The position numbers were made by a program, and so were the translations under genes. A DNA stretch of 64,000 nt from Methylovirgula sp. 4M-Z18 (GTDB taxonomy: Bacteria > Pseudomonadota > Alphaproteobacteria > Rhizobiales > Beijerinckiaceae), in contig NZ_CP149574.1 of the NCBI RefSeq assembly GCF_037890675.1, positions 3,820,874 to 3,884,873 of the forward strand, in the 5' to 3' direction. The notes beneath the pieces are model-generated. The model was given only the letters and a program-made list of their open reading frames with translations, was not told the DNA's origin and did not search any database. Below are positions 7,382 to 48,807 of the stretch, piece after piece; the stretch's first letter is position 1, and every line of letters starts with the position of its first letter.

Positions 7382-7389
7382 CCGACCCC

Positions 7390-28849: not shown

Positions 28850-28860
28850 GGCGTCGGAGA

Positions 28861-31206: not shown

Positions 31207-31217
31207 GGAATGTCCTT

Positions 31218-31940
31218 TCAGCCGACGATGGTGCGGGGCGTTTGCGCGCTGGGTGGCATGAACCGCAGATGCGGAGAGAGTAGGCGCTCGACCCAGCCGA
31301 GCGCCAGAATGGCGAGAAAGCCCACTGTCAGATAAATGATACCGGTGAGGGCCAGGGTCGCGACCTCATGCAAGGTCCGCCGCCCGACCGCCTGGGCAAC
31401 GCCCGTCATTTCGACGACGCCGATGAGGCCAGCGAGCGACGTCGATTTCAGCATCAGCACGACCTCGGTGGAATAGGCCGGCAACGCCTGGCGCAGGGCA
31501 TTTGGCGCGATGATGCGGCGCAGGAGCTTGAAGCCCGACATGCCGATGGCGCGGGCGGCCTCGATTTCCTTGGCCGGAACCGCGAGAAGGCCGCCGCGGA
31601 AAATTTCCGCCGAATAGGCTGCAGTACAGAAAGCGAGGCACATGACCGCCGTCCAGAAGCGGCTCGCAAGCACCCACCACATCGGCGGGAGATGAAAGAA
31701 CATGAACTGCGCGAGACCGTAAAAGATCAAGAACATCTGAATCAGCAGCGGCGTGCCGCGGAAGAAGAAGATGTAGGTCTTGGCAAGGCCGGACAGGATC
31801 GGATTCGCGCTCATCCGCATCCACAAGATGAGCATCGCAAGCACCGCGCCGATCGGGACACAGAGCGCGAAGAGCGCCAGGGTGGTCGGCAGTACGGCCA
31901 GAATTTGCTGAAACGTGGTGACGAGAAAATTCATGTCCAT
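31218..31940 (-). CDS. Polar amino acid ABC transporter, permease (HisM type)
   Basis: A 240-residue inner-membrane protein with about five helices. The EAA loop that contacts the ATPase reads EIEAARAIGMSGFKLLRRII near residue 135. The N-terminal helix pair (LAVLPTTLALFALCVPIGAVLAM) and YIFFFRGTPLLIQMFLIFYG are typical of HisM/GlnP. It is eight bases downstream of its partner permease and 11 bases upstream of the ATPase gene. Confidence 0.95.
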   Translation of the reverse strand: MDMNFLVTTFQQILAVLPTTLALFALCVPIGAVLAMLILWMRMSANPILSGLAKTYIFFFRGTPLLIQMFLIFYGLAQFMFFHLPPMWWVLASRFWTAVMCLAFCTAAYSAEIFRGGLLAVPAKEIEAARAIGMSGFKLLRRIIAPNALRQALPAYSTEVVLMLKSTSLAGLIGVVEMTGVAQAVGRRTLHEVATLALTGIIYLTVGFLAILALGWVERLLSPHLRFMPPSAQTPRTIVG

Positions 31941-31948
31941 GGCGGCAC

Positions 31949-32704
31949 CTACATTCCAACCGGGCGACGGAAAGTCTTGGCGACACGCCGCTCGCCGGCG
32001 TTGAACATCCGGGTCGAGATGCTTGTCAGGACCAAATAGAGACAGGCGCCCACGATGAAGAACATGAAGAATTGCTTAGTCGATCCCGCCGCCTTGTTGC
32101 TCGCGTTCATGATCTCGACGAGCCCGGTGACGGAAATCAGCGCCGAATCCTTGATGCTGAGCTGGAAGACATTGCCGAGGCCGGGAATGGCGTAGCGCAT
32201 GATTTGCGGCGCGATGATGCGGCGGAAGCGCATGAAACGGTGCATGCCGATCGAGCGCGCCGCCTCGATCTCGCCCTTGAAGATCGCCGTGTAGGCGCCG
32301 CGAAAGACCTCCGCCTGGTACGCCGCGGAAATCAAGCCGACCCCGAGCGCGCCGGCGAGGAACGAATTGATCACGTGGCTGTCGCCCAGCCCTAGCGCAC
32401 TCACGGTGTTGCCGATCAGGTCGACGACCTTACCGAAATAGACCATGTAGATGATCAGAAGTTCGGGAGCGCCGCGCAGGACGACGGTATAGATATTGCC
32501 GACGATCTTTGCCGGCACATTGTCCGCGAGCTTCGCCCAAGTCACCAGCGCGCCGACGATCGCGCCGATGATCATGGCGAAGACGGTGACTGCCAGGGTC
32601 ATCGCCGCGCCGCCGAGGAGATAAAAGCCCCAGCCAGTTTGGCCGAATCCAAGCTCCGAAACAAGCGACGAGACTCGATCAACAAACGCAGTGAAAAGGT
32701 CCAA
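31949..32704 (-). CDS. Polar amino acid ABC transporter, permease (HisQ type)
   Basis: A 251-residue permease with the EAA loop EIEAARSIGMHRFMRFRRII and the conserved VVLRGAPELLIIYMVYFG. The start was set at a TTG because GAGGAG lies nine bases before it; the frame extends 24 codons further upstream, but those alternative starts have poor or no ribosome-binding sites and one lies beside a strong palindrome. It pairs with the HisM-type permease. The 323 bases between the binding-protein gene and this start hold two palindromic elements, a layout expected to lower permease relative to binding-protein synthesis. Confidence 0.92.
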   Translation of the reverse strand: MDLFTAFVDRVSSLVSELGFGQTGWGFYLLGGAAMTLAVTVFAMIIGAIVGALVTWAKLADNVPAKIVGNIYTVVLRGAPELLIIYMVYFGKVVDLIGNTVSALGLGDSHVINSFLAGALGVGLISAAYQAEVFRGAYTAIFKGEIEAARSIGMHRFMRFRRIIAPQIMRYAIPGLGNVFQLSIKDSALISVTGLVEIMNASNKAAGSTKQFFMFFIVGACLYLVLTSISTRMFNAGERRVAKTFRRPVGM

Positions 32705-32775
32705 GGCTTGGCTCTCCTCTTCGGGTGGGCCAGTGAGTTGCGCAAGCATTCCACCGATGATGTGCGCATTCGTCA

Positions 32776-32798
32776 ATGACCGGGCCGGGCCCGGTCAT
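32776..32798. repeat. Perfect palindrome upstream of the HisQ-type permease
   Basis: ATGACCGGGCC and GGCCCGGTCAT flank a single central base, giving an 11-bp-arm palindrome in the leader of the permease gene. It may form part of the intergenic mRNA structure between the binding protein and permease genes. Confidence 0.55.
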
Positions 32799-32886
32799 GC
32801 CGTGAAGTTCAGGCTCGTCGCAGCACGAAACCTACGCCAAATCATACCAGTGGCGCTTGCATCGAACTCATGTGACGCCAGCAATT

Positions 32887-33013
32887 GTCATCCCGGGCTT
32901 GACCCGGGATACAGCGCCCCAACCTCGACGGCGCGAGATTGGCCTGTCCTGCAGCGCCAGCGATGATTCATGCGTTGCACGGCTGATGGATCCCGGGTCA
33001 AGCCCGGGATGAC
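32887..33013. repeat. Paired inverted repeat element (REP/BIME-like)
   Basis: Two 24-bp arms, 32887-32910 and 32990-33013, are exact reverse complements of each other; each arm is itself palindromic around CCCGGG-N4-CCCGGG (arm begins GTCATCCCGGGCTTGA). They bracket about 79 bases of unique sequence and sit directly after the binding-protein stop codon. A variant solo copy is at 18148-18175. The pattern is that of bacterial interspersed palindromic repeats. Confidence 0.8.
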
Positions 33014-33027
33014 ATCGAGGCCGGCAC

Positions 33028-33885
33028 TCAGGGCGTCGCGGCCGGGGTCACGTCCAGCTTGAACCACTTCAAGCTGAGCTTCTTGACGGTGCCGTCAGCA
33101 ATCGCGTCGGCGATCGCCTTGTCGAACTTGTCCCGCAGGTCGGCGTCGTCTTTGCGGAAGCCGGGGCCAATGCCCTTGCCCCAGATAGAACCGCCGATTT
33201 GCGGACCGACCAGCACCATCTGATCGTTACCCGGCTTGGCAAAGGCCGAGGTGAAGTAGGTGTCATCGTCAAAGGCGACATCGATACGATTGGCCGTGAC
33301 GTCAAGGTCATGCTCAGGCGCGGTCTTATATTCGGTGATGGTGGCGATATCGCCGAAATTGTTCTTCACAAAGTCGGTGTAGACGGTGGCGGTCTGGATG
33401 CCGATCGTCTTGCCCTTCAGCGCCTTGCGCAGAATTTCGACGGTAGCCTTGTCGTGCGCCGCGTCGCCGGTGAGCGACACCATGGTTCCGGTGCCGTCCA
33501 TCTTGGCAAGATCGCTGCTCTTGAGGCCCGCGAAGCCAGCCGGGGTTTGTGCGTAGGGGCGCGAGAAGGCAATTTGTTGTTCGCGTTCAGGCGTGATCGA
33601 CATCGCATCCATGATGACGTCGAACTTGCCGGCGTTAAGGCCGGCGATCATGCCGTCCCAATCCTGGGCGATATATTTGCACTCGACCTTCATGCGCGCA
33701 CACAGATCGTTGGCGAGCTCAATTTCAAAGCCCCCCAGCGTTCCGTCGGGCTTCGTCAAGTTCCATGGCTCGTAGTCGCCTTCGAGGCCGATCGTAACGG
33801 TCTTCCAGTCCTTGGCTTGAACTTCGGGCGCCGCCGCAAATGCGGCGAGCGCCAGGAATGCGGAGATGGCAACGGTCTTCTTCAT
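33028..33885 (-). CDS. Polar amino acid ABC transporter, substrate-binding protein (HisJ/LAO type)
   Basis: A 285-residue periplasmic protein. The signal peptide is MKKTVAISAFLALAAFAAA with cleavage near EVQA; GGGAGAA lies upstream of this ATG, so 39 further in-frame codons upstream were not included. The ligand-binding core shows VTIGLEGDYEPWNLTKPDG, GGFEIELANDLCARMKVECK and DVIMDAMSITPEREQQIAFS, typical of lysine/arginine/ornithine- or histidine-binding proteins. It is the first gene of the importer operon and is transcribed divergently from the HutC-like regulator. Ligand identity cannot be fixed; basic amino acids or histidine are likely. Confidence 0.94.
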   Translation of the reverse strand: MKKTVAISAFLALAAFAAAPEVQAKDWKTVTIGLEGDYEPWNLTKPDGTLGGFEIELANDLCARMKVECKYIAQDWDGMIAGLNAGKFDVIMDAMSITPEREQQIAFSRPYAQTPAGFAGLKSSDLAKMDGTGTMVSLTGDAAHDKATVEILRKALKGKTIGIQTATVYTDFVKNNFGDIATITEYKTAPEHDLDVTANRIDVAFDDDTYFTSAFAKPGNDQMVLVGPQIGGSIWGKGIGPGFRKDDADLRDKFDKAIADAIADGTVKKLSLKWFKLDVTPAATP

Positions 33886-34085
33886 GCGGTGTTCTCCCTG
33901 GTGTGAACCTACAAGTTCGGCCTGATGCGCCGGCAACCCGGATGTCAGAGGCAGTTTTGAATGTTTGCATACCCGCTGTGGCACCTCCCCAGATCGCCAC
34001 ATTCTCGTCCGGTCATTCCACGCCGCAAAGTCTTCTCTGGCGCCTGAGATAAAAATCAGGCATAGTCAGATAGGAGTGTGCAGAA

Positions 34086-34099
34086 CTTGTATGTATAAG
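34086..34099. promoter_or_regulatory. HutC/GntR-type operator between regulator and importer operon
   Basis: CTTGTATGTATAAG differs at one or two positions from CTTGTATGTACAAG-like palindromes that I associate with HutC-type regulators. It lies in the divergent promoter region, 77 bases before the regulator start and about 200 bases before the binding-protein start. A second TA-rich half-like sequence, CTATACATAA, follows at 34102. Confidence 0.6.
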
Positions 34100-34175
34100 T
34101 TCTATACATAATTTTGGGCGGTATGCAAGCGTTCGATGGACGCGTCCTGGCGCTTTTTTCGAGGTTGACGCAAAT

Positions 34176-34985
34176 ATGAGCATGCTATCGGAAAACAAGC
34201 GCGAGGCGGCTGAAACCTCCACACCGCTCTATGCCGAGGTAAAACAACACATTTTGGCGCGCGTGCGCAGCGGTGAATGGCCGCCGGATCATCGCATTCC
34301 CTCGGAGAGCGAGTTGGTAGAACAGCTCGGGGTGAGCCGTATGACCGTGAATCGGGCTTTGCGCGAACTCAGTCTGGAAGGCGTTCTCGTCCGCATGCAG
34401 GGCAAAGGCTCCTTTGTCTCGGGGGGCAACAGCCGATCGGACGTCTTTGCGGTCGGGAACATAGCCGATGAGATCCGCGGGCGCGGTCACGATTACAGCG
34501 CCCAGGTTCTGCTCCTTGACACCCTCAAGGCCACGCCCGACGTGGCCGACCTCCTGGAATTGCCCATCGGCAGCCCGGTTTTTCATTCGATTATCGTGCA
34601 TTACGAGAATGATGTGCCCGTGCAGCTCGAGGACCGTTTCGTCAATCCACTGGTGGTGCCGCATTATCTGGAAGCGGATTTTTCGAAGCTGACGCCCAAT
34701 CACGTCCTCAGCGCCGTCGTGCCATGGAGCGAGGCGGAGCACCGCATCGAGGCGGTGTTGCCGCAGCCCTGGGAATGCAAGCTACTCGCGATCTCGCGCT
34801 CCGATCCGTGTCTGCTGATCCGCAGACGGACATGGACGGCTGGCCAGATTGAGCCGCTTGCGCAACCAGCCGGCAGTGCCGAGGATGCCCGAACACAGGG
34901 CCATGTGGTGACGTCCGTGCGGTTGCTGCTGCCCGGCGGGCGCTACCGGATCGAAAACCGCAGACAAACGAACCGCGCAGACTAG
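34176..34985 (+). CDS. GntR-family regulator with UTRA domain, HutC-like
   Basis: A 269-residue regulator. The N-terminal winged helix reads PLYAEVKQHILARVRSGEW with ESELVEQLGVSRMTVNRALRELS; the UTRA ligand-binding domain starts near FAVGNIADEIRGRGHDYSAQVL and ends RRRTWTAGQ with LLLPGGRYRIENRR, the C-terminus of HutC proteins. HutC proteins bind urocanate or related ligands and repress histidine-use genes. Here it is divergent from an amino acid importer and a lyase homologue, with an operator-like palindrome between, so it very probably represses that operon. The ligand may differ because the lyase lacks its prosthetic group. Confidence 0.92.
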   Translation: MSMLSENKREAAETSTPLYAEVKQHILARVRSGEWPPDHRIPSESELVEQLGVSRMTVNRALRELSLEGVLVRMQGKGSFVSGGNSRSDVFAVGNIADEIRGRGHDYSAQVLLLDTLKATPDVADLLELPIGSPVFHSIIVHYENDVPVQLEDRFVNPLVVPHYLEADFSKLTPNHVLSAVVPWSEAEHRIEAVLPQPWECKLLAISRSDPCLLIRRRTWTAGQIEPLAQPAGSAEDARTQGHVVTSVRLLLPGGRYRIENRRQTNRAD

Positions 34986-35050: not shown

Positions 35051-35094
35051 CTAGGGTCAAAACGCGGTCATGGATGATCGCGTTTTGACCCTAG
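35051..35094. terminator. Strong bidirectional terminator hairpin
   Basis: A perfect 16-bp stem (CTAGGGTCAAAACGCG with its complement) is nearly extended to 20 bp with a TGGA loop. It ends both the HutC-like gene and the convergent GH15-like gene, whose stop codon lies within the right arm. The stem itself carries AAAA/TTTT, and the outermost pairs are followed by no T-run. Confidence 0.8.
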
Positions 35095-36407
35095 AGGCGT
35101 TCAGCCCTCTGCTTGGCCGCCACCGCGCTGATAAAGCCCGCATAGCTCCACGCCAGATGCTTGGCCGAGGTCTGGACGCCTGTGGCCTTGTCGAATTGTT
35201 CGGACATGTCGCCGCTCTCGGGCGTGTAGGCGCGGATTGTCCGGAGGTAGGCGTCGCCTCGCGCCAGAAACGCAGCGGCTTGCGGCGCGTCCGACGGTTG
35301 CAAGGCGCAAGCGCGCAGAAAGCAGAATTCCGCCGCGGCGAGCGTGGAGAAATAATAGGCCCCGCCGGAATAATAGACGTCGCCATGATAACGGCCGAGC
35401 GCCGGCCCACGGTTTGCCGGTCTACCCCGATTGATCGGGTAATCGGTTTCGAACAGCGCATCGAGGCGATCGAGCGTTGCCGCCATCCGAGCGTCTGCCG
35501 GCGAATGCGATGAGGAGCCGCCAGCATGAATGGCGGCGAGGATCACGGCGATATCCAGATCCTTTGTCAAGTCCGTATCTTTGCCCACGCGTGAGCGGAA
35601 ATAACCAGCTTCAGGCACCCAAAAGGCATCCAGCCGTTGCATGATTTCGGCCGCATCGTCTCTTGCCGCTTGCGCCGGCTCAGCCTCTCCTTGCTCCTCC
35701 AGCCAGCCGGCACCGAATTCCAAAGCGGCGGCCTGCACGCGCAACGTATAATAGTGCTCGGCCTTTTCCTCCTCCCATATGTCGACGGTTGGTATGCGCC
35801 AATGCGCCAGGATGAACAGCAGATCTTCGCGCAGCAATGTCTTGATCGCCTGATCTTCTCTCATCCCGAATGTACGGCCGCTGCGGCACCAGCGCATCAA
35901 TGTTAAGGCCCTTGTCGCCACGCCGTCATATTGCGGGCGGCCCCAGCCCAGGATATCGAGGCTGCCATCAGGATTGACTCGGGCTTCGCCGCGCACGACG
36001 GCTGCGGCAAGATCGTCGTCCGCGCGGACGAATTGCTGCAACTCTGGCGCAATCGGCCGCCGCCATGCCGCATCCTTCACCAATGCGCCGCCATCAAGCC
36101 GATCGAGTGCGAGGCTGAAATCGACGAAATCGCAGAAATGCCGCGCTGCCTCCTCGGTGCCGACCAAACGCAGGGCGTCCATCACCAGCGCGGAATCGCG
36201 ATACCAGTGGAAGAAATAATCGGGGTCGGGATTGTAGGACGCCAAGACAGGAGAGGCGACGACGGATCCTTTCGCCGGCACGATGACCTGCCCGAAGCCA
36301 TCGCGGCGCTTGACAATGCTGCTCGCCGAAACGCTGCGCAGCATGTTCGCGACGGCAATCGGATATTGCCGCGCGATCCAGCTTTCAAGGTCTGGTGAAT
36401 CGTTCAT
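35091..36407 (-). CDS. Glycoside hydrolase family 15-like glucoamylase
   Basis: A 438-residue (alpha/alpha)6-barrel glycosidase. NPDPDYFFHWYRDSALVMDAL is the glucoamylase substrate-binding signature, GRPQYDGVATRAL another, and the acids in VDIWEEEKAEHYYTLR (general acid) and SGDMSEQFDKATG (general base) fit GH15. The start was set at the ATG behind GGAG. No signal peptide is present, so it acts in the cytoplasm. It is the third gene of an operon behind a GH144-like and a GH3 enzyme, 19 bases after the former. It should release glucose from an alpha- or other glucan; the companion genes suggest beta-linked glucans are also processed. Confidence 0.87.
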   Translation of the reverse strand: MNDSPDLESWIARQYPIAVANMLRSVSASSIVKRRDGFGQVIVPAKGSVVASPVLASYNPDPDYFFHWYRDSALVMDALRLVGTEEAARHFCDFVDFSLALDRLDGGALVKDAAWRRPIAPELQQFVRADDDLAAAVVRGEARVNPDGSLDILGWGRPQYDGVATRALTLMRWCRSGRTFGMREDQAIKTLLREDLLFILAHWRIPTVDIWEEEKAEHYYTLRVQAAALEFGAGWLEEQGEAEPAQAARDDAAEIMQRLDAFWVPEAGYFRSRVGKDTDLTKDLDIAVILAAIHAGGSSSHSPADARMAATLDRLDALFETDYPINRGRPANRGPALGRYHGDVYYSGGAYYFSTLAAAEFCFLRACALQPSDAPQAAAFLARGDAYLRTIRAYTPESGDMSEQFDKATGVQTSAKHLAWSYAGFISAVAAKQRAERL

Positions 36408-36426
36408 GGCCGCTCCACTCAAAGCG

Positions 36427-37731
36427 CTATTTCGCCGCCAGATGCGGCGACTCAAAACCAAGGCGACGCAAACCGTGCTGGATTTCGGGGCAGCTCATGA
36501 AGAGATTCCACAACAGTCCCGTCCGGTAATTCTCGATCATGATGATGATCGGGCCTTGGTCGATGGCGAGATGCGTATCGGCATACCAGCCGCGCGACTC
36601 GCAAAATCCATCGACAAAACCGTAATCGCGCCAAAGCTGATGACCGAGCGTCCCGTGAAAATGTTTCAAGGCCGCCAGCGAATGGTCCGGCGCATAGGGC
36701 ATAGAAGACAGCGCTGCAGTGGGCGCAATGACGCCGGCATCGCTATCGGGCGCGTAAGCACCATAGCCATCCGGGCCGTCGCACGACGTCAGGCCCCAGG
36801 CATGTTCGCCGTAACCCGCAAAGCCATTCGGGTTGCGCACACAATGTTCGCGATTGATCCGCACGTGCTGCACATTCTGTTGCCAATAATCAGCGTAGCG
36901 ATCTTTCAACCCGCGCGGATCAAGGCCAAGAAACGAATAATGCGCGAAAAACATCGGCCCGCCGTAATCGGGGCCAAGCGGCAATTCGATATCGTAGTAG
37001 CGCCGCCCGTTCGTGAACTTGCGGCCCTCGGCCCAGCCCTTGTGATAGACATCCGGGTTGATGGGATAACGCGGTGAAGACGCCCCGAGCACATAGGTGA
37101 TCAAAGCCTCGTTCCAGCCGCGCAGCTCGAAATTCATGGCCCAACCGTTATTCGGGCTCCAGTGCCAGTAGAGCACGTTGCCGCCATCGCGGGCGTGCCA
37201 ATCCCACTCAGTCTCTTCCCAAAACCAATTGATGATCTGCCGCAAATGGCTTTCCACCGCATTGTCGCGATTGAAATATTGCCTGGCACATAAGAGTCCG
37301 ACGACGAGAAAGGCAGTCTCGACCAAATCGCCGCCGTCGTCCTTGCGGCCAAGATGGATAACGTTGCCGGTATTGCCGTTCAGCATATGCGGCATGACGC
37401 CGTGGTAGCAGGGAATGGAAAACAGAAAGTCGATGATCGTCGTCAAGCGTTCGACAGCTTGTTCCCGCGTAATCCAGCCGCGCTCAACAGCGACGACGAT
37501 GGCCATCACGCCAAAGCCGGAGCCTCCGGAGACCACGACGTCGATTTTGTCCTGGCTCTTCGGATCGCTGCGATCGCGGGCGAGACCGCAATGCGGATGG
37601 GCGAAATCCCAAAAATAGCGGAAGGTCTGGCGTTGCACGAGCTCGAGCAATGCCTCGTCGGATTTGGTCAGACGAAAAGGTTTGGCTGCTTTGGCGGAAT
37701 GCGTTCCGGATTGCCTTGGATCTTGCCGCAA
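36427..37731 (-). CDS. Glycoamylase-domain glycosidase (PF10091), GH144-like, possible beta-1,2-glucanase
   Basis: A 434-residue protein matching the PF10091 Glycoamylase domain, which covers GH144 endo-beta-1,2-glucanases and the C-terminal part of cyclic beta-1,2-glucan synthases. Motifs include LELVQRQTFRYFWDFAHP, VVSGGSGFGVMAIVVAVERGW, GDLVETAFLVVGLLCARQYF, and AWGLTSCDGPDGYGAYAP. The start was set at a TTG six bases behind AGGGAGG, since another TTG directly abuts that site. It has no signal peptide, unusual for an endo-glucanase. It follows a GH3 gene by 52 bases; GH144 with GH3 beta-glucosidase is a known pairing for beta-1,2-glucan breakdown, so that substrate is the favoured inference. 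Confidence 0.83.
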   Translation of the reverse strand: MRQDPRQSGTHSAKAAKPFRLTKSDEALLELVQRQTFRYFWDFAHPHCGLARDRSDPKSQDKIDVVVSGGSGFGVMAIVVAVERGWITREQAVERLTTIIDFLFSIPCYHGVMPHMLNGNTGNVIHLGRKDDGGDLVETAFLVVGLLCARQYFNRDNAVESHLRQIINWFWEETEWDWHARDGGNVLYWHWSPNNGWAMNFELRGWNEALITYVLGASSPRYPINPDVYHKGWAEGRKFTNGRRYYDIELPLGPDYGGPMFFAHYSFLGLDPRGLKDRYADYWQQNVQHVRINREHCVRNPNGFAGYGEHAWGLTSCDGPDGYGAYAPDSDAGVIAPTAALSSMPYAPDHSLAALKHFHGTLGHQLWRDYGFVDGFCESRGWYADTHLAIDQGPIIIMIENYRTGLLWNLFMSCPEIQHGLRRLGFESPHLAAK

Positions 37732-37783
37732 ATCCAACCTCCCTGTCGTGTCACGTCCCGCCTTATCCGGCGGCTCACCGCGG

Positions 37784-39937
37784 TCAGCCTAGCACCTCGA
37801 TGCGGGTGCGCAAAAGTCCGCTTGCCTCGGCGCTCGCACCGACCAGGATATCGAATGCCCCCGGCTCGAGCTTTGGCTGAAGATCGCGATCGAGAAAGCG
37901 CAAATCATCCGTGGTGAGATGAAAGTTCAGGGCGCCGCTCTCGCCAGCAGCGAGCGTGATCTTGCGGAAGTCCTTGAGTTCCAAGGCGGGCCGCGTCACG
38001 CTCGACGCGAGATCGCGAATGAAGAGGAAGAGGGTCTGCTCGCCGGCCTGCGGCCCCTTGTTGCTGACATCGACCGTGACGTCGAGAGCCTCCCCCGCGC
38101 GCACCGCCTGCCGGCTCGTTCGCAACCCGCTCAATTCGAATTGGCTGTAGGACAAGCCATGCCCGAACGCGAATCGCGGTTCGTTCGGCATATCGAGATA
38201 TTTGCTTGAGTAATGCTCCGCCGGAACGGGCGGACGCCCGGTCGGCCGCTCGGCGAAATAGATCGGGATCTGCCCGACATCGACCGGCCAGGACATGGTG
38301 AGCCGGCCGCTCGGGTTGAAGCGGCCGCTGAGCACGTCGGCGATCGCCGTCCCCGCCCCGTCGCCCAGAAACCAGACCGCCAGGATCGCCTTGGCTTTCT
38401 CGACGAGCCAATCCGGCAGGACGAGCGGACGACCGGAGAACAAGAGGACGATGACCGGCTTCTTTTGCGCAAGCACGGCGCGGGCAAGTTCCTGCTGGGC
38501 GTGCGGCAGATCCGGGCGGCCGCGGCTGCTGGCTTCGCCGCTCATGCCGATGGTTTCTCCAAGGCAAAGGACGACCGCGTCGCACTGCCGGGCGAGAACA
38601 CGCGCGTCGGCCAGTGCCTTCTTGTGACCGCGTTCGATCTCGCATCCGGGCGCAAACGCGACGCGCGTCTGCGGCAAAGCGTCACGCAGCCACTCAAACA
38701 CGACGGGGTTTTTCCCAGCCGTGTCTTGCTGCGCCTCGCCCTTGCCGTCGGCCAATGGTCCGATGACGGCGAGCACGCCCGTGCTGTCGCGCAGCGGCAA
38801 AGTATCATCCTTATTCGTCAGCAGCACGATCGAGCGACGGGCCGCCTCTCGTGCGAGACCATGCCGACTGCGCTGGGCACTCTTGGCGGCGACCGCTTCT
38901 GCCGATCCGCACCGCCGATAGGGATCTTCGAAGAGCCCGAGCTTTTCCTTCAGTTCCAGCACCCGGCGGACAGAGCTGTCGATCGTCTCCATCGTGACAA
39001 GGCCGCGCTTCAGGGCTTGCGGCAGACCGTCGGTATAGGCACCGCCGCCCATCATATCGATATCGACGCCGGCATTGAGCGCGAGGGCGGCCGCTTCCGT
39101 CTGGTCGGCCGCGATGCCATGCACCATGAGTTCGGCAACCGCGCTGTAGTCGCTGATCATGACGCCGGAGAACCCCCATTCGCGGCGCACGATGTCGCGC
39201 AGGATGGCGACATGAGCCGTCATCGGCGTGCCATTCAAATCGGTGAAGGCCGGCATGATCGCCGCAACGCCCGCCGCGACGCCCGCCCGGAACGGGGGCA
39301 GATAGACCTCATGAAGGCTGCGCTCGGAAATATCCACCGACGCATATTCCCGGCCGGCCCGCACGGTGCCGTAAGCGGCAAGATGCTTGATGGTCGCGGC
39401 AATAGAGCCGGCGTCCGCCAGTCGTGGGCCTTGATAGCCGCGCACCTTTGCTTCCGCCATGCGCGCCCCGACCAGTGCATCCTCGCCTGGTCCCTCCTGA
39501 ATGCGCCCCCAACGGGGATCGCGCGCCACGTCGATCATCGGTGCGAAGGTAATGTCGACCCCAAAGACCGCGCATTCCTCGGCGGCAACGCGGGCCGTAG
39601 CTTCCCAGAGCTTCGGGTCAAAAGCCGCTCCTTCGCCAAAGGGTATGGGGAAGATCGTGCTCAATCCCCGCAGCACATCGAGGCCGAAGAACATCGGGAT
39701 CTTGAGACGGGATTCCTCGACCGCCAGGCGCTGCACGTCGCGGACCCGCTCAGGTCCCCACAGATTGAGAAGACTGCCGATCTTGCCGCCGACGATCGCT
39801 TCATGGGTCACGGACGCGGAGGTGGGCCCGGTCTTGACCAAATCGCCGCTCAGCATGACCAATTGCCCAATCTTTTCCTCGAGCGTCATCTGCGAAAGGA
39901 GCTGCTCGATGCGCGTCGTGCCGCTAGACTCCATCAT
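37784..39937 (-). CDS. Glycoside hydrolase family 3 beta-glucosidase (BglX-like)
   Basis: A 717-residue GH3 enzyme without a signal peptide. The (beta/alpha)8 domain opens LLSQMTLEEKIGQLVMLSGD; the nucleophile Asp is in GVMISDYSAVAELM; the second domain includes DAVVLCLGETIGMSGEASSR, and a fibronectin-III-like domain closes the protein (ALDVTVDVSNKGPQAGEQTLFLF). It removes terminal beta-linked glucose units. It is the first gene of the GH3-GH144-GH15 operon; lack of export signals in all three suggests cytoplasmic use of imported or internal glucans. An operator-like sequence lies about 75 bases upstream. Confidence 0.94.
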   Translation of the reverse strand: MMESSGTTRIEQLLSQMTLEEKIGQLVMLSGDLVKTGPTSASVTHEAIVGGKIGSLLNLWGPERVRDVQRLAVEESRLKIPMFFGLDVLRGLSTIFPIPFGEGAAFDPKLWEATARVAAEECAVFGVDITFAPMIDVARDPRWGRIQEGPGEDALVGARMAEAKVRGYQGPRLADAGSIAATIKHLAAYGTVRAGREYASVDISERSLHEVYLPPFRAGVAAGVAAIMPAFTDLNGTPMTAHVAILRDIVRREWGFSGVMISDYSAVAELMVHGIAADQTEAAALALNAGVDIDMMGGGAYTDGLPQALKRGLVTMETIDSSVRRVLELKEKLGLFEDPYRRCGSAEAVAAKSAQRSRHGLAREAARRSIVLLTNKDDTLPLRDSTGVLAVIGPLADGKGEAQQDTAGKNPVVFEWLRDALPQTRVAFAPGCEIERGHKKALADARVLARQCDAVVLCLGETIGMSGEASSRGRPDLPHAQQELARAVLAQKKPVIVLLFSGRPLVLPDWLVEKAKAILAVWFLGDGAGTAIADVLSGRFNPSGRLTMSWPVDVGQIPIYFAERPTGRPPVPAEHYSSKYLDMPNEPRFAFGHGLSYSQFELSGLRTSRQAVRAGEALDVTVDVSNKGPQAGEQTLFLFIRDLASSVTRPALELKDFRKITLAAGESGALNFHLTTDDLRFLDRDLQPKLEPGAFDILVGASAEASGLLRTRIEVLG

Positions 39938-40096: not shown

Positions 40097-41896
40097 ATGA
40101 ACGTTCCAGCCAAGTTGCCGCAACCCGTCGCAACGCATATCGCAGATGCTTCCAGCAATGGCGTTTGGGCCCAGTTGCTCATTATGCTCGAAGCGCTGAA
40201 AGGGTCGCCGCGGAAATGGGTGCTGATAAGTCTGCCGGCCGGCAGCGTGGTCGTCATCTCGGCGATCGCGGTTGGCCAGGTCCGGTTGAACCAATGGCAA
40301 GGCGCCCTCTACGACACGCTGGTACAACGCAATTTCAGCGGTTTCCTGCATCAGACTACCGTGTTCTTGGCCATTGTTTCTGCCCTTCTCGCCCTGGTGG
40401 TGGCCCAAACCTGGCTGACGGAAGTGGGCAAAGTTAGGCTGCGCGGCTGGCTGGTCCGCGACGTAATGGATGAATGGCTGCGCCCGAAGCGCGCCTATCT
40501 CTTCGCCTATACCGGGGAGAGCGGCGTCAATCCCGATCAGCGCATTCATGAGGACGCGCGCCATCTTTCGGAACTCTCGGTGGATTTCGGCAACGGACTG
40601 CTGCAATCTTCGCTTCTGCTCATCAGCTTCGTCGGCGTCCTGTGGGGGCTCTCGTCCCAGGTCGTCTTCAACTGGGACGGCAAAGACTTCACGATTCCGG
40701 GCTACATGGTTTGGTGCGCCTTTGCCTACGCTTCCGTCGGCTCCTGGCTCACCTGGTGGGTCGGACGCCCGCTCATCCAGCTCAATGCCGATCACTATGC
40801 GCGGGAGGCAGCATTTCGCACGGCCCTGGTCCGCGTCGTCGAACGAGCGGAAGCCATCGTGCTCTATCGCGGGGAGGCCGACGAACGCGCGTGGCTCGAT
40901 GATAAATTCAACGCCGTTCAAATCGTTGCCCGCAAACTGGCGGGAGGCGTGGCGCGCCTGACCTGGATTACGTCCGGCCATGGCTGGCTGGCGATTCTTG
41001 CACCATTCCTGATCGCCGCACCGGGCTATTTCAGCGGCAGGCTGTCGCTTGGCGCCCTCATGATCACGGTCGGCGCGTTCAATCAAGTTCAAAGCTCATT
41101 GCGCTGGTTCGTCGATAATTTTTCGCGGATCGCTGATTGGCGCGCCACTTTGGGCCGCGTCGTCACGATGCGCGAGGCATTGCGGGCATTGGAAACCCTG
41201 CACGAAAATGAGAGCCGGATCGACTTCTCGGAACATCCGGAACAGAAGCTGGTACTTGAGCATGTCGAAACCTTTCTGCCGGGTTCACTTGTCGAATGCG
41301 CCGTCCTCAATGAAGAGCGAATCGAATTGTGCCCCGGCGAACATGTACAGGTCATCGGCGACGTAACGGCCGTCAAAACGACATTTTTCCTGGCGCTCGC
41401 CGGATTGTGGCCGTGGGGCCGCGGCACGATCAGCTTGCCGCCGCGCGACGACATGATGTTCTTGCCACGGCAGCCCTATCTGCCCACCGGCTCGCTCCGG
41501 AGCGCGATCGCCTATCCGGCGGAAGCCCATGTGTTCAGTGACGAGGCGATGCGCGCCGCTCTGTCCCGCGTTGAGCTCGGGCATCTCGCCGACGACCTCG
41601 ATCGCAAGGCCACCTGGGAAAAGGAACTCTCCCTCGATGAAGAGCAAGCGCTCGGCTTTGCCCGCGTGCTGTTGCATGCACCCAAATGGGTGTTCCTCGA
41701 TGATGCCTTAGGCGCGATGGATCCGAAAATGCGGGCATCGATCATGTCGACGTTCGGCCAAGAGCTGGCCGGCACGTCGGTTGTCAGCACGGGCCGCAGT
41801 GCTGAGAACGGTTTCTACAGCAAGACGTTGCATTTGCGACGGTTGGAGCGTCAGGAAAAACGAAGCACGCCGCTGTCAGTTGACGCGGTGACCTGA
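40097..41896 (+). CDS. SbmA/BacA-like ABC transporter with a degenerate nucleotide-binding domain
   Basis: A 599-residue membrane-domain plus ATPase-domain protein of the ABC_membrane_2 type (six membrane helices across residues 40-330, then the NBD). The NBD has lost key residues: Walker A reads GDVTAVKTT, with Val for the second Gly; the signature reads LSLDEEQALGFAR, with Asp for the Gly of LSGGQ-type motifs; Walker B reads WVFLDDALGAMD, with Asp for the catalytic Glu; and the switch region VVSTGRSAE lacks the His. It probably binds ATP poorly and hydrolyses it little if at all. It is divergent from the glycosidase operon and precedes an M20 peptidase by about 50 bases. Confidence 0.85.
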   Translation: MNVPAKLPQPVATHIADASSNGVWAQLLIMLEALKGSPRKWVLISLPAGSVVVISAIAVGQVRLNQWQGALYDTLVQRNFSGFLHQTTVFLAIVSALLALVVAQTWLTEVGKVRLRGWLVRDVMDEWLRPKRAYLFAYTGESGVNPDQRIHEDARHLSELSVDFGNGLLQSSLLLISFVGVLWGLSSQVVFNWDGKDFTIPGYMVWCAFAYASVGSWLTWWVGRPLIQLNADHYAREAAFRTALVRVVERAEAIVLYRGEADERAWLDDKFNAVQIVARKLAGGVARLTWITSGHGWLAILAPFLIAAPGYFSGRLSLGALMITVGAFNQVQSSLRWFVDNFSRIADWRATLGRVVTMREALRALETLHENESRIDFSEHPEQKLVLEHVETFLPGSLVECAVLNEERIELCPGEHVQVIGDVTAVKTTFFLALAGLWPWGRGTISLPPRDDMMFLPRQPYLPTGSLRSAIAYPAEAHVFSDEAMRAALSRVELGHLADDLDRKATWEKELSLDEEQALGFARVLLHAPKWVFLDDALGAMDPKMRASIMSTFGQELAGTSVVSTGRSAENGFYSKTLHLRRLERQEKRSTPLSVDAVT

Positions 41897-41947: not shown

Positions 41948-43339
41948 ATGGCGACGAGAGCCGACGCAATCGCTGTTGTACAAGAGCATTTTCAATCCGG
42001 GCAATTCCTCAAAGAACTGAATGCAAGGGTCGCCTACCGGACCGAGAGCCAGAATGCCGACAAGGGCGACGCCTTGCGCGCCTATCTCGTCGAGAATTTG
42101 CAGCCGGCCCTTGCTGAACTCGATTTCACGACGCGGCTGGTCGAGTCGCCGACCGGCCGCGGGCCGTATCTGTTAGCTGCATACCATGAGGATGCCGCGC
42201 TGCCGACGGTCTTGACCTATGGCCATGGCGATGTCGTCGACGGCATGGCCGGCGAATGGCGCGACGGTCTCGATCCGTGGCGGATCACGGTCAAGGGCGA
42301 CCGCGTCTACGGCCGCGGCACCGCCGACAACAAGGGGCAGCACAGCATCAACATGGCTGCGCTACGGGCGGTGCGGCAGGCGCGCGGCGGCAGGCTCGGC
42401 TTCAATGCGAAATTCGTTGTCGAGACCGGCGAGGAGATCGGCTCGCCCGATCTGCGCCAGGTCTGCGAGGCGCATCGCGACGAGCTCAAAGCCGATCTGT
42501 TCCTGGCGTCCGACGGGCCGCGGCTTTCGGCCGAGCGCCCGACGATCTTCCTCGGCTGCCGCGGCGGCAACCGCATCCATCTCGACGTCGACTTGCGCGA
42601 GGGCGGACACCATTCGGGCAATTGGGGCGGCGTGCTCGCCAACCCTGCAACCATTCTGGCGAATGCGATCGCGAGCCTCGTCGACGGCAAGGGCCGCATG
42701 AAGCTCGAGATCCTGAAGCCACCGCCGATCTCGCCCGAGGTCCGCGCCGCGCTGGCGGATGTCAAGGTCGAACCGGCCGCGGACGAGCCCGCGCTCTCGC
42801 CCAACTGGGGAGAAGAAGGCCTGAGCGCCGCCGAGCGGCTCTATGCCTGGAACACGCTCGAAGTGCTGGCGATGTCCGCCGGCAATATCGAGAGGCCGGC
42901 CAATGCCATTCCGGGCAAGGCCAGCGCCGTGCTGCAGCTCCGCTTTGTCGTCGGCACGAAATATCTCGAAATGGTCGATGCGATACGCGCCCATCTGCAC
43001 GCCGACGGCTTTCCGATGGTGAAGGTCTCGGGCGCGCAACGCTTCGCCGCCTCGCGCGCCGACATGGACAGCCCGTGGATCGACCGGGCAGCGAAATCGA
43101 TCCGCCAGACCACCGGCAAGCCGCCGGCGATCCTGCCGAATTTCGGCGGCTCGCTGCCCAACGACGTGTTCGCCGAAGGCCTCGGCCTGCCGACCATCTG
43201 GGTGCCGCATTCCTATCCGGGATGCTCGCAGCACGCCCCCGACGAGCACATCCTGTTGCCGGTGACGGAAGAGGCACTCGCCATCATGGCCGGCCTGTTC
43301 TGGGATCTCGGCGAGATGCCGCGCACGTCTCACAAATAA
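41948..43339 (+). CDS. M20-family metallopeptidase (dipeptidase/acetylornithine-deacetylase type)
   Basis: A 463-residue M20 enzyme. The metal ligands sit in VLTYGHGDVVDG (His and bridging Asp follow-up in VYGRGTADNKGQHSINM) and in VVETGEEIGSPDLR with the catalytic Glu pair; a further His is in YPGCSQHAPDEHIL. A dimerisation domain lies between about residues 215 and 335. The start at this ATG has GAAGGA upstream. It hydrolyses a peptide or amide bond in the cytoplasm. It follows the degenerate ABC protein in the same direction, but a shared role cannot be deduced. Confidence 0.92.
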   Translation: MATRADAIAVVQEHFQSGQFLKELNARVAYRTESQNADKGDALRAYLVENLQPALAELDFTTRLVESPTGRGPYLLAAYHEDAALPTVLTYGHGDVVDGMAGEWRDGLDPWRITVKGDRVYGRGTADNKGQHSINMAALRAVRQARGGRLGFNAKFVVETGEEIGSPDLRQVCEAHRDELKADLFLASDGPRLSAERPTIFLGCRGGNRIHLDVDLREGGHHSGNWGGVLANPATILANAIASLVDGKGRMKLEILKPPPISPEVRAALADVKVEPAADEPALSPNWGEEGLSAAERLYAWNTLEVLAMSAGNIERPANAIPGKASAVLQLRFVVGTKYLEMVDAIRAHLHADGFPMVKVSGAQRFAASRADMDSPWIDRAAKSIRQTTGKPPAILPNFGGSLPNDVFAEGLGLPTIWVPHSYPGCSQHAPDEHILLPVTEEALAIMAGLFWDLGEMPRTSHK

Positions 43340-44604: not shown

Positions 44605-47600
44605 TCAGAAATCGTATCGCATGCCGCCGTTGAAGGCCCAGCCGCGGAAGCCACCGCTGCTGACGTTCTGCTCGCGCGCCACATCGCCATAGAGCGAGAC
44701 ATTGTGTGTCAGAGTGCCCGTCATACCGGCCCGGAACTCGACCGCCGTGCCAAGCTGACCGGTGCTGAACCCGACATTGCTGAGCGTCACCTTGTTGCTG
44801 CCGCCAATGCCCTGCAGCAGATTAACCTCAAAATAAGGTGTCAGCTGCATTTGGCTTGGGCCCGCAAAATGCCGCAGCACCCGCCCGCCAGCGCGGAACA
44901 CCGCCTGATCCGGGCTGCCAAGATCGACATTGATGTTGTCGATATCGATCTTATGCGCAAAGTCCAGCCGCTGATAGGTCATCTGAGCCTCAGGCTCGAC
45001 GATGAGATCGTACCAGCCGGTCTGCAGCGGATACCCCGTTTCGAGCGAAAGATCGAAGCTGTTGCCATCGAGGCTCGTGGTCTTGCCGCGCTGCGGCGTC
45101 GTGGCCTTGCCAGTGAACCAGCCCCCCGAGACGATGGCATCGACATACCAGCCAAGACGAGACTGCCAGGTCAGCATGCCGGCCACGGTCACAGTGTTGG
45201 CGTCACCTTTGCTTTGCCCGTCGACCGCACTCGGCTGATACCGCAGCGAGCCCAGCGTGGTGGCAAGGCCAACGCGCAACTTACCGTCTTCGCGATCAAG
45301 CCCGATCCAGTTGCCACCGAACTGCACCGCCGAATAGTCGCCCGAGAAGTTGAAGCCGAAGTTGCCAAAACTCTTCGTCGACTTGTAGTCGAAGGTGTTG
45401 CCAAAGCCGCGCACGAAGAACTCGCCTTGCTGCGGCATGCCCTGTTGCTGCGCATCACGGATCTCACCAAGCCGGCGATGCAGCTCATCCAGATCCTGGA
45501 AGTTAGCGTAGAAGAGAGCCGTCGGCGCCGAGATATAAGCAGGTACCTGCGGCACGACCGCTGGGCGCGTGTTGGGCAGTGTCAGCGGAGCACCCGGACT
45601 CACGGGTCCAGCCGGTGAGACATAGGCGTTCTGCAGCCGGTAGTCCCAATAGCCATTGGCATTGCCGACAAGGTCCTGGCTCGCCGCCGCCGGGCCATTC
45701 GGAGATCCTGGCCCATAGGCATAGAGTTTGTATTGGAACGGCGTGCCGCCACTGATATAGCCGCCAGGAAGCGTGAAGGCATTGGCGGTGGAAGCGCCGG
45801 CCACCTGAACGAGGGAAATACCGTCGACCGCATTGGGTATGCCGGTGGGACCGAAAGCACCGGTGACGGCGCCGCTGCCGGCGGCGCGCACAATGAGCGA
45901 CGTGTTGCCGATCGGGTCACCCGTGACCAGCATTCGATCGGTGAATTGATTGGAGAGTGGGCCGCCGGCATTCAGCAGCGTGTTGAGCACGAGCCTACCG
46001 TTGTTGCCGGTATAATTGCCGGTCACAGTCAAGGTCGTGCCAGTCGAGGTACCGTGCAGGTTGGTTGCGACGACACCGGCGTTGGTCAGGCCGGCAATCG
46101 TCTGGCTGATGCCGTTGGCATCGAGCGTAGCGCCGCTGGCGACGACAAAGTTGGAGCCCGGGCTGAATGCGCCCGACGCACCGGCCTGCAAGGTGCCGGC
46201 TGAGACCGTTGTCATGCCGGTATAGGTGTTGGCGGCGGTCAGAACGGTCGTTCCCGCGCCAATCTGCTGCACCGCGCCGGTGCCCGAGATCACACCGCTA
46301 AAATCATAAGTATCGGAGCGATCGAAGGCCAGCGTACCGTTATCAGTGACACTGCCGGTGATGCTGCCTGAGCTGCCGCCATTGCCGAGTTGCAACGTGC
46401 CTGCGCTAATGGTGGTGCCGCCTGTGTAGGTGTTATTGCCGGTTAGGACGGTCGTGCCGGCGCCAATCTGCTGCACCGCGCCCGTGCCCGAGATCACACC
46501 ACCAAAATCATACGTATCGGAGCGATCGAAGGCCAGCGTGCCCTTATCGGCGACATTGCCGGTGATGCTGCCTGAGCTGCCGCCATTGCCGAGTTGCAAC
46601 GTGCCTGCGCTAATGGTGGTACCACCTGTGTAAGTGTTATCCCCGGTCAGGACGGTCGTTCCCGCGCCGATCTGCTGCACCGCGCCCGTGCCCGAGATCA
46701 CACCGCCAAAATCATAAGTATCGGAGCGATCGAAGACCAACGCGCCGTCATCGGTGACATCGCCGGTGATGCTGCCTGAGGCGCCGCCATTGCCGATTTG
46801 CAGCGTGCCCGCGCTGATCGTCGTTCCACCGCTATATGTATTATTTGCGATGAGCGCCAGTGTACCGCTGTCGGCCTTGGTCAACGCGCCTTGGCCGCTG
46901 ATAACGCCGCCGATTGTGTAGGTGTTGGTGCCACTTACATCGATCGTGTTGGCAAAGCCGGCGATAGGATTGAGCACGACATCGCGCGTGGTACTCGTGG
47001 TCGCGGTCACCGCCAACGTGCCGCTGCCAGGAAGGCCCGTATCTGCGTCGGTGCCGCCGAACGTGAGGGCACCCGCGGTACTCCCCAGAGCGGCATCGTT
47101 GCTGATTTGCAACGTGCCGCCCGTGATCGTCCACGGTGTCACCACGCCTGTCGCGCTTGTCAATTGCCAAGTGCCGGTGCCCGACTTCTGGAACGCATTG
47201 AAGTTCTGATATTTGGCGCCGATCTGCGACACGTCGAAGACCGTCGCCGTGGCGGTGCCGCCGCCTAAGAGATTCGACGAGCTCCCGCCGAGGATCAGAG
47301 TGTTGATGGTACCGGTCACGCCCGAAGCATTGCCGACATTGCCGCTGATCACCCAGCCGGATTGCAGCTCCAAGCTGTTGGTGCCTCCGGTGAAGAGAAT
47401 GGCATTGGATCGGACGGTGCCGGTATTGCCGTCAAGGCCGCCGGCGATCGTGCCGGAATTGACGATAGTCAGATTGCTGCCGCGAATGCCGACGCCGCCA
47501 ACGCCGCCACCTGTCGTAAGACCTGGTGATGGGGGCCCGCCATTGCCGCCCTGGAGGAGGCCCGTGTTAATGATCGTTGTTGCGAGCCCCGCGACTTGGC

Positions 47601-48423
47601 CGCCGATGCCGCCGACGCCGCTGATGCCGCCGCCTAGACCGCCACCGCCGCCATTGCCAATGGCGTCGCCGCCATCACCGGCGGTGCCATGCTGCAGAGG
47701 GTTGAGCGAATAGTTGACGCCGGCCGCGCCATTACCACCGTAGATTTTGCCATTATTTGTGATGCGGAAGATGCCCGTGATATTGCCGCCCGTGCCACCG
47801 ACGCCACTTGCCCCATAGCCGCCCGCGCCGCCACCACCGCCAACGCCCGCGCCGCCGCCTCCGCCGCCTCCACCACCGCCGAGGCCATACCCGCCGCCGC
47901 CACCGCCGCCGCCGCCGCCAACGCCCGCGCCGCCACCGCCGCCGCCGCCGGAGCCATAAAGGTGACTACCTTGGCCGCCGCTGCCACCACTGATGACGGA
48001 GCCTATGGGATTGGTGAAGATGAAAGATTGGCTAACACCGCCCCCCGGATTTCCGGTGTGCTGATATGCCCCGCTGTTGCCACCCCCGCCGCCGGTGACG
48101 CCGGAGCCGGGGCCCCCGCCGCCACCTCCGCCACCGCCATAAGTGCCGCCGCCGCCCAAGCCACCGGTTGCGTCGGCGCCAGCACCGCCGCCGGGGGACG
48201 TGCCGCCGCTACCGCCAACGCCCGTATTGGTGCCCGGTGTGCCACCTGCGGCCATTGCAGGAGAGCCAGCTATTGCAACTGCTGCAACCGTTAGGACCAT
48301 AACAGCGAGCGCTGTGGTACCCATCAAAAACGCGCGGTGTAGCCCCTTCGCGGCAGACGTCATGACGCGAGGCGGCAGATCGACCTTCACATGCTTCGGG
48401 CTGCCGTGCCGGCGACGGGCCAT
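44605..48423 (-). CDS. Autotransporter (type Va secreted protein) with glycine-rich and PATR-repeat passenger
   Basis: A 1272-residue protein. It begins with a long signal peptide (basic MARRRHGSPKHVKVDLPP stretch, then FLMGTTALAVMVLTVAAVAIAGS, cleaved near PAMA). Residues about 50-300 are extremely glycine-rich (runs such as GGGGGGGGAGVGG), followed by beta-helical autotransporter-associated repeats: at least four PATR units of the form NTYTGGTTISAGTLQLGNGG. The last 270 residues are an autotransporter beta-barrel ending in RYDF, the terminal aromatic needed for outer-membrane insertion. It should display an adhesin-like or structural passenger on the cell surface. It is divergent from a sulfotransferase gene. 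Confidence 0.9.
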   Translation of the reverse strand: MARRRHGSPKHVKVDLPPRVMTSAAKGLHRAFLMGTTALAVMVLTVAAVAIAGSPAMAAGGTPGTNTGVGGSGGTSPGGGAGADATGGLGGGGTYGGGGGGGGGPGSGVTGGGGGNSGAYQHTGNPGGGVSQSFIFTNPIGSVISGGSGGQGSHLYGSGGGGGGGAGVGGGGGGGGGGYGLGGGGGGGGGGAGVGGGGGAGGYGASGVGGTGGNITGIFRITNNGKIYGGNGAAGVNYSLNPLQHGTAGDGGDAIGNGGGGGLGGGISGVGGIGGQVAGLATTIINTGLLQGGNGGPPSPGLTTGGGVGGVGIRGSNLTIVNSGTIAGGLDGNTGTVRSNAILFTGGTNSLELQSGWVISGNVGNASGVTGTINTLILGGSSSNLLGGGTATATVFDVSQIGAKYQNFNAFQKSGTGTWQLTSATGVVTPWTITGGTLQISNDAALGSTAGALTFGGTDADTGLPGSGTLAVTATTSTTRDVVLNPIAGFANTIDVSGTNTYTIGGVISGQGALTKADSGTLALIANNTYSGGTTISAGTLQIGNGGASGSITGDVTDDGALVFDRSDTYDFGGVISGTGAVQQIGAGTTVLTGDNTYTGGTTISAGTLQLGNGGSSGSITGNVADKGTLAFDRSDTYDFGGVISGTGAVQQIGAGTTVLTGNNTYTGGTTISAGTLQLGNGGSSGSITGSVTDNGTLAFDRSDTYDFSGVISGTGAVQQIGAGTTVLTAANTYTGMTTVSAGTLQAGASGAFSPGSNFVVASGATLDANGISQTIAGLTNAGVVATNLHGTSTGTTLTVTGNYTGNNGRLVLNTLLNAGGPLSNQFTDRMLVTGDPIGNTSLIVRAAGSGAVTGAFGPTGIPNAVDGISLVQVAGASTANAFTLPGGYISGGTPFQYKLYAYGPGSPNGPAAASQDLVGNANGYWDYRLQNAYVSPAGPVSPGAPLTLPNTRPAVVPQVPAYISAPTALFYANFQDLDELHRRLGEIRDAQQQGMPQQGEFFVRGFGNTFDYKSTKSFGNFGFNFSGDYSAVQFGGNWIGLDREDGKLRVGLATTLGSLRYQPSAVDGQSKGDANTVTVAGMLTWQSRLGWYVDAIVSGGWFTGKATTPQRGKTTSLDGNSFDLSLETGYPLQTGWYDLIVEPEAQMTYQRLDFAHKIDIDNINVDLGSPDQAVFRAGGRVLRHFAGPSQMQLTPYFEVNLLQGIGGSNKVTLSNVGFSTGQLGTAVEFRAGMTGTLTHNVSLYGDVAREQNVSSGGFRGWAFNGGMRYDF
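46215..46840 (-). repeat. Tandem 204-bp repeats inside the autotransporter gene
   Basis: Three near-identical units, each 204 bp (68 codons), recur in frame: the marker TGCCCGAGATCACACC starts at 46281, 46485 and 46689. Each encodes a PATR-containing stretch with AFDRSDTYDFGGVISGTGAV. High DNA identity suggests recent duplication and a potential for length variation by recombination. Confidence 0.85.
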
Positions 48424-48807
48424 CTCCCGTGCCCCCGGCAAGATTTGCCCGCATTCAGATCGAATCGGCGAATGAGTACGGATCAAGTAAGTTCGCACTA
48501 TTGCCTGCCCCATAGCATAAGCGCGTCTTCAAGGAGTACCCCACCCTTAACCTTGAAAGCGTACATTACCAAGAGCTTTTTTGCGGAATTAATGTGGGAG
48601 CTTTGTGTCAAGGGGAGAAAGGGGGCACTCCCTGTCCACGCGCAGGCGAAGGAGCGCCCGCATGCCGCGGCAAGCTGCGGCAATAACGAGCTTGCCGACG
48701 CCGGTCCGCGCCTCCTCATCGCAAATCACGGGCCGGATTGAATTCGGAATCGGCATGTGGCTATCTGAGGAGCGTATTTCATTTTATGGGTATGGCTGGA
48801 GAAGGCG
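48424..48807. other. Divergent promoter region, autotransporter and sulfotransferase
   Basis: About 385 bases without a supported gene. The part 48,520-48,610 is AT-richer than its surroundings, fitting promoter function. I see no clear operator dyad. Confidence 0.4.

Follow-up and report, generated by a model that had tools for sequence, protein, structure and literature searches.

The question raised by the window, by which we mean the whole 64,000-nucleotide stretch of Methylovirgula sp. 4M-Z18 DNA analysed here, is what becomes of an ABC half-transporter that has lost its ATPase motifs and kept its reading frame. A sequence-only reading had proposed such a concerted loss and had quoted four motif strings, all of which are present in the open 599-residue forward frame (Table 1). 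Its statement that every motif is altered stands for the signature and the switch; in Walker A a single residue is changed (G426V) and K427 and T428 are kept, and in Walker B D535 is kept, with D536 at the position of the catalytic Glu. The G426V change takes Walker A out of the G(x4)GK[ST] consensus, and the signature Gly, catalytic Glu, switch His and Q-loop Gln are all replaced (D514, D536, R567 and R458, respectively), the Q-loop substitution being a further change absent from the earlier list. Position 514 is presumably homologous to G551 of CFTR, in the numbering we assume. To judge from these residues, the protein is very probably dead as an ATPase.

Table 1. Features of the ABC gene, its product and its conserved neighbours in the window.
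Feature	Position	Strand	Remarks
GH15 family protein	35091..36461	-	conserved neighbour
PF10091 protein, GH144-type endo-beta-1,2-glucanase homologue	36427..37737	-	5gzh/5gzk, E about 1e-147; conserved neighbour
GH3 beta-glucosidase, divergent neighbour	37784..39937	-	matches several beta-glucosidases including Lin1840; conserved neighbour
ABC half-transporter, degenerate ATPase site, 599 aa, ExsE/BacA-like clade	40097..41896	+	open frame, Pfam, trees
Membrane domain, residues 25-372, used for trees	40169..41212	+	PF06472 58-290, PF05992 39-351; 6tqe most similar solved structure, residues 75-566
H151-E152-D-x-x-H156	40547..40564	+	E152 aligns with SbmA switch Glu E193; both His specific to degenerate clade
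W337 at SbmA gate Tyr368 position	41105..41107	+	Trp in 135/135 degenerate rows
Nucleotide-binding domain (NBD), residues 385-585	41249..41851	+	fold-type residues kept, catalytic lost
Walker A GDVTAVKTT	41357..41383	+	G426V; K427, T428 kept
Q-loop Gln -> Arg458 (Q458R)	41468..41470	+	alignment
Signature LSLDEEQALG	41627..41656	+	G514D
Walker B and D-loop WVFLDDALGAMD	41687..41722	+	D535 kept; catalytic Glu E536D
Switch His -> Arg567 (H567R)	41795..41797	+	alignment

The protein matched three Pfam families: ABC_membrane_2 (PF06472) with 124 bits, SbmA_BacA (PF05992) with 78 bits against a cut-off of 24, and, weakly, ABC_tran (PF00005) with 27 bits against a cut-off of 25. A match to PF05992, which the window protein thus has, was the entry criterion of a study of ExsE/BacA-like proteins, according to its accessible text (PMC12003926). 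Its best match among solved structures over both domains is 6tqe, the Rv1819c/BacA protein of Mycobacterium (E = 6e-58). The accessible parts of PMC12003926 and PMC10960864 describe both Rv1819c and BclA as ATP-driven; the motifs of the window protein argue against a BclA-type dependence on ATP. An AlphaFold model computed from a two-row alignment reached a pLDDT of 36.

To compare the motifs across homologues, six residues were scored: the Walker A Lys and Ser/Thr, the signature Gly, the Walker B Asp, the catalytic Glu and the switch His. In the family of the window genome 290 of 298 genomes carry some homologue at E <= 1e-40, mostly a distant one. All seven nearest orthologues (58-67% identity, two genera) are without signature Gly, catalytic Glu and switch His, and their Walker A ranges from intact (L011 and L012, re-fetched as L040 and L041) to a K-to-E replacement (L015 and L016, re-fetched as L044 and L045). 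The loss of the hydrolysis machinery is therefore shared, with Walker A decaying on top of it; the patchy pattern among close orthologues that would have spoken for a dying gene is confined to Walker A. Every scored residue is retained in the intact controls (16/16 more distant same-family homologues and 23 nearer ones), as it is in all 40 intact rows of the final set. Among its 176 degenerate rows the signature Gly is missing in 174, the switch His in 170, both in 168, and these two together with the catalytic Glu in 70. The catalytic Glu is kept in 101 rows, the Walker A Lys in 140 (lost in 36) and the Walker B Asp in 148, which suggests that most degenerate members may still bind ATP. Some lineages have lost all six (11 of 135 degenerate rows).

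Fifty NBD positions are invariant in the intact rows, and 14 of them are lost in most of 97 degenerate representatives. Catalytic-motif positions account for 9 of these 14 versus 7 of the 36 kept (Fisher p = 0.005, with motif boundaries set after viewing the alignment). Of the lost positions outside the motifs, R518, T538 and S564 adjoin them and R432 and H574 lie near them; W438, G441, G443, P448, L467, W507, R523 and P529 are kept at >= 95% in the degenerate representatives. The most eroded full-length NBDs with PF10091 linkage belong to eight rows of one family (f16: L157, L159, L161, L163, L167, L171, L172 and L204), in which replacements affect the Walker A Lys, the signature and Walker B alike (e.g. 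VDRTGSAHRA, ISYDEEVRVT and WIFSEQTIDAMD).

The trees rest on the membrane domain alone, which keeps the NBD from influencing the grouping. The first set comprised family homologues of roughly 40% identity or more and, as outgroup, 16 remoter ones; in the 107-row tree (72 degenerate, 35 intact) the loss maps to one change (shuffled mean 29.7; 0 of 500 shuffles as low). One change was found again when the set was widened with homologues sought throughout the order (found at E <= 1e-105 in 70 of 397 genomes) and with named plasmid records, to 135 degenerate and 40 intact rows. With family f24 added, the rows numbered 176 degenerate, 40 intact and 6 NBD-less, and the three states require exactly two changes. 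The clade of degenerate and NBD-less rows has a support of 99/96 on a careful 62-row tree and of 71, 80 and 91 on the larger quick trees (107-row, widened and f24-added, respectively). Its degenerate rows span 13 coded families of one order, in addition to named records without a family code.

Duplicates (L140-L143, L146-L151, L223, L227, L229, L230, L273 and L277) and truncated or split rows (L194, L198, L208, and L255, a fragment whose NBD continues in another frame) were dropped; the split record was that of Sinorhizobium R11 (L208, in two pieces), and strain 2011 was used instead. The counts include a few rows from the same or near-identical records (e.g. L064/L209 and L079/L211). NBD-less loci L251-L254 are represented in the three-state tree by their re-fetched copies L267-L269 and L271, and L131 and L216 were left out of the 62-row tree as long branches. 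The latter, on a Variovorax paradoxus plasmid, is a betaproteobacterial GH3/PF10091/GH15/ABC set whose ABC gene is interrupted by an in-frame stop; its location suggests horizontal transfer. Long open frames at L118, L101, L207 and L174, known by their frame coordinates only, look like fusions; we think that they are putative antisense or upstream frames in GC-rich DNA.

Selection was assessed by simple Nei-Gojobori counts over pairs that are not independent. The median omega was 0.28 for the NBD and 0.18 for the transmembrane domain (TMD) in the degenerate clade (208 close pairs), compared to 0.13 and 0.15 in the intact rows (76 close pairs), and dN(NBD)/dN(TMD) was 1.66 (274 pairs) as against 1.01 (109 pairs). 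These ratios indicate that the NBD of the degenerate clade is relaxed yet still constrained: its chemistry and some of its constraint are lost, selection is not. The proposal of a concerted ATPase loss in an intact frame is thus borne out, the gene being intact and under selection and the loss being conserved among close homologues.

In a search of 199 family-f24 genomes with the ExsE protein of Sinorhizobium fredii NGR234 (63 matching genomes; the DNA of 46 matches was fetched), some matches covered the membrane domain only, and in these genes a stop codon directly follows the domain. A second search, of 394 genomes with one NBD-less query (100 matching genomes; 12 loci fetched then, others earlier), gave six such genes in four genera, the five other proteins being 76-81% identical to the query and ranking above all full-length ones. 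An NBD remnant was sought in four of the NBD-less loci and none was found. When a separate NBD was sought in the six genomes, only generic ABC domains appeared among the matches listed: the best-scoring are 29-33% identical and lie in frames of about 570-730 residues, and the highest identities are 36-37% over most of the query and 43% over one 61-residue stretch. A separate NBD gene was accordingly rejected. The NBD-less rows form one clade (support 100) nested deep inside the degenerate clade, and their omega of 0.18-0.39 indicates that the membrane domain is worth keeping alone. The order of events is therefore intact, then dead, then deleted, once each. A YddA-type TMD gene of Rhizobium tibeticum whose operon has no NBD is described in the accessible text of PMC13316013, and it may be one of these six.

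On the membrane-domain tree the degenerate clade includes the genes of S. meliloti 2011 and S. fredii NGR234, and the window protein groups there with Sinorhizobium ExsE (L213/L214). The motifs of the NGR234 protein read GDPRAGKTL, LSDDDQRLLA, DEALE and IGRTP. In Sinorhizobium strain RCAM1750 the gene adjoins queC/queD and lies near exsH, and these neighbours identify the S. meliloti member as ExsE; we take queC, queD and queE to be exsB, exsC and exsD. Sinorhizobium ExsE differs from the window protein in that its gene belongs to the exs region and does not lie among glucan hydrolases, and in that it retains the Walker A Lys and the catalytic Glu. Linkage to GH genes is for the most part missing in the ExsE family: the short flanks of the 26 newly examined full-length rows of L221-L250 contain none. 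ExsE was placed in Clade A by Smith et al. 2025, as given in the available part of PMC12003926, and by its tree position the window protein belongs with it. The same text reports that exsE of Phyllobacterium zundukense partly complemented (to an intermediate level) the gentamicin resistance phenotype of a Sinorhizobium bacA mutant, with little or no complementation for NCR247, so that at least one ExsE-class protein is functional. All 56 rows examined from f24, likely the GTDB family of P. zundukense and equated here with Rhizobiaceae/Phyllobacteriaceae, are degenerate or NBD-less.

The ExsE of Sinorhizobium, a model symbiont, is annotated as an ABC transporter ATP-binding protein/permease and probably does not hydrolyse ATP. 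Our search of the open-access literature, which leaves subscription journals largely outside, returned nothing about an ATPase-dead ExsE or about glucan loci with a degenerate ABC protein; the word "degenerate" does not occur in the main text of PMC12003926 or PMC13316013, nor "ExsE" in that of the latter. ExsE has apparently never been described as ATPase-dead.

The neighbourhood of the gene was examined for a possible cargo. In the window the ABC gene is divergent from the GH3 gene, which is followed on its strand by the PF10091 and then the GH15 gene; the endo-beta-1,2-glucanase structures matched by the PF10091 protein belong to the family that the accessible text of PMC12102758 treats as GH144. 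By eye, none of the three enzymes has an N-terminal hydrophobic stretch. In 67 linked family loci, each with a GH3, PF10091 or GH15 homologue by tblastn, these three were the only neighbours found as whole frames in more than 13; next came GH13 (13), SOGP (10) and two kinds of glucokinase (7 and 7). GH3, glycoamylase or GH15 genes lie near 110 of 135 degenerate rows versus 1 of 23 intact ingroup rows; the rows are non-independent, and the first figure is a lower bound because flank lengths differ. The window genome has a single PF10091 gene and three MdoG/OpgG genes, which makes a periplasmic source of glucan plausible. The cargo suggested by these genes is glucan and not peptide.

One intact homologue (L068 in genome G057, at 6004-7650 on the reverse strand) lies in a complete glucan locus, and the same genome has an unlinked degenerate copy (L053). 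Linkage and ATPase loss were therefore not one event; L068 branches basally among the intact sisters, which hints that linkage may be the older of the two. L068 offers a natural ATP-driven control for its dead homologues. The loci resemble the beta-1,2-glucan gene set of Listeria, which has GH3 (Lin1840) and SOGP (Lin1839) enzymes. The Listeria set uses a binding-protein ABC importer, whereas the recurrent membrane protein of the present loci is the degenerate ABC protein. If its substrate is indeed a beta-1,2-glucan, it would fill the place of importer in a locus where the enzymes are present and no canonical transporter recurs.

The explanation that we favour, with a probability of about 0.58, is that the window protein is a living ExsE/BacA-like half-transporter with an NBD unable to hydrolyse ATP, and that it carries its cargo, likely beta-1,2-gluco-oligosaccharides, independently of ATP hydrolysis. 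As to the parts of this reading, the protein is in all likelihood a transporter, and its transport would probably be hydrolysis-independent; glucan as the cargo is a little short of an even bet, and proton coupling is possible but rather doubtful. The membrane domain would still transport, with the dead NBD retained as its structural appendage. The protein is presumed to form a homodimer, both composite sites of which would be without signature Gly, catalytic Glu and switch His. A gradient would drive transport, through proton coupling or by facilitated passage, and degradation of the cargo in the cytoplasm would sustain net uptake; the cargo could be pieces of osmoregulated periplasmic glucans, which the GH3, GH144-type and GH15 enzymes would cleave. 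That transport would proceed without ATP hydrolysis is suggested by the absence of a canonical ATP site in any homo- or heterodimer, taken together with the NBD-less forms under selection.

One competing explanation is an ATP-binding-gated facilitator or channel, CFTR-like in its logic, in which nucleotide held by the remaining Walker A and B residues gates a pore and is not hydrolysed. The frequent retention of the Walker A Lys and Walker B Asp and the continuing constraint on the NBD would fit it; however, nearly all degenerate rows lack the signature residue needed to complete the ATP sandwich and some lack all six residues, six genomes dispense with the NBD, and Walker A, too, is eroding in the clade of the window protein. 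We consider this explanation unlikely. A role without transport, in which the protein would serve the adjacent glucan enzymes as scaffold or sensor, would be in keeping with a lost motor and with the gene linkage, and is improbable because the membrane domain is the more constrained part and the NBD the dispensable one, and because an ExsE-class protein altered gentamicin sensitivity (PMC12003926, accessible text); the "regulator" offered by the sequence-only reading as an option found no support. Hydrolysis through non-canonical residues, to which the widely kept catalytic Glu might lend some credit, is very improbable, since lineages went on to lose different residues after the common loss of signature Gly and switch His, which ill fits one replacement chemistry, and since NBD-less forms exist.

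Rescue by an intact partner in a heterodimer could be imagined from the one other close relative in the window genome, an unlinked intact half-transporter paralogue (L002, 30% identity), and from genome G536, where two tandem copies lie in a complete GH3/PF10091/GH15 locus (L170:6004-9768). The window protein is hit on both faces, in the Walker B Glu and switch His and in the signature, and would leave any heterodimer without an undamaged composite site; the two G536 copies are both degenerate, and the 22 commonest neighbour families at the glucan locus include no second ABC half-transporter. A heterodimer was rejected on the site logic and the state of the G536 pair, and we give it hardly any credence; the tandem pair may itself be an obligate heterodimer of two dead halves. 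In known heterodimeric ABC exporters with one degenerate site, the other stays canonical. These also lose catalytic Glu, switch His or signature residues (PMC7756269, available part); unlike in them, every site of a window homodimer would be hit. A decaying gene, as the patchy Walker A and an NBD evolving faster than the TMD might hint, was rejected as next to impossible, given frames that are full-length nearly throughout (internal stops in 3 of 223 aligned rows, L067, L216 and L236), purifying selection on both domains and presence across many families.

On the descent of proton-driven carriers such as SbmA from ATP-driven ABC transporters, the accessible text of PMC13316013 speculates that a YddA-like TMD was separated from its NBD. 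The sequence-only reading had placed the window protein in the SbmA/BacA group, some members of which work by proton gradient. When ten BacA rows and E. coli SbmA and YddA were added to the tree, SbmA/BacA formed a separate 11-row clade (support 100), on a very long branch, outside the group of ExsE and its intact sisters. SbmA ancestry was accordingly rejected, and ExsE would represent a second, independent route away from ATP. SbmA/BacA, the SLiPT family of PMC13316013 (available part), is similar in its related membrane fold and in not depending on an NBD; it differs in having no NBD, which the window protein has and six relatives lack, and SbmA has extra TM0 helices according to the same text.

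The SbmA ladder glutamates are given there as E193, E203, E269, E276, E287 and E378. In the window protein E193 and E276 are kept, as E152 and E237, and E378 corresponds to D347; E203, E269 and E287 are not Glu (V162, N230 and residue 248), as in the intact sisters, the E287 equivalence being alignment-dependent (an earlier alignment paired it with E260). With half of the ladder missing, the SbmA mechanism is not simply transferable, and the proposed membership of the proton-driven SbmA/BacA group found no support. Gradient coupling through the H-E-D-x-x-H site is a guess. H151 and/or H156 is present in 88 of 97 degenerate representatives compared to 0 of 23 intact ingroup rows, and every one of the six NBD-less proteins has both. 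About 20 TMD positions differ between degenerate and intact rows, two of them being the gained His, and the proton-site idea is only a lead because it rests on clade-defining substitutions such as any clade would show.

The wider reading, that the ExsE clade is a second secondary-transporter lineage evolved independently from an ABC transporter, with all stages extant, perhaps with H151-E152-D-x-x-H156 as a new protonation site replacing the glutamate ladder, and importing beta-1,2-glucans, is put forward tentatively, as we think it rather more apt to fail than to hold. The lineage offers a plausible order of events with living members at each stage, in which the ATPase dies, the dead domain stays for long and is then deleted.

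Some further features of the window were observed. An M20 peptidase gene (41954-43339, forward strand; PRK07079, 732 bits) starts 57 bases after the ABC stop codon; as a conserved partner it was rejected, having not been seen at other loci. The region 27566-34985 contains an aromatic amino-acid lyase, an FAD oxidoreductase, an ABC importer of amino-acid type and a GntR/UTRA regulator, and has the look of a histidine-utilisation type cluster. A 1302-residue frame at 44605-48513 (reverse strand) is glycine-rich, repeat-bearing and autotransporter-like by eye, and a single 770-residue frame at 52424-54736 (forward strand) has both FAD-binding monooxygenase and Oxidored_FMN parts.
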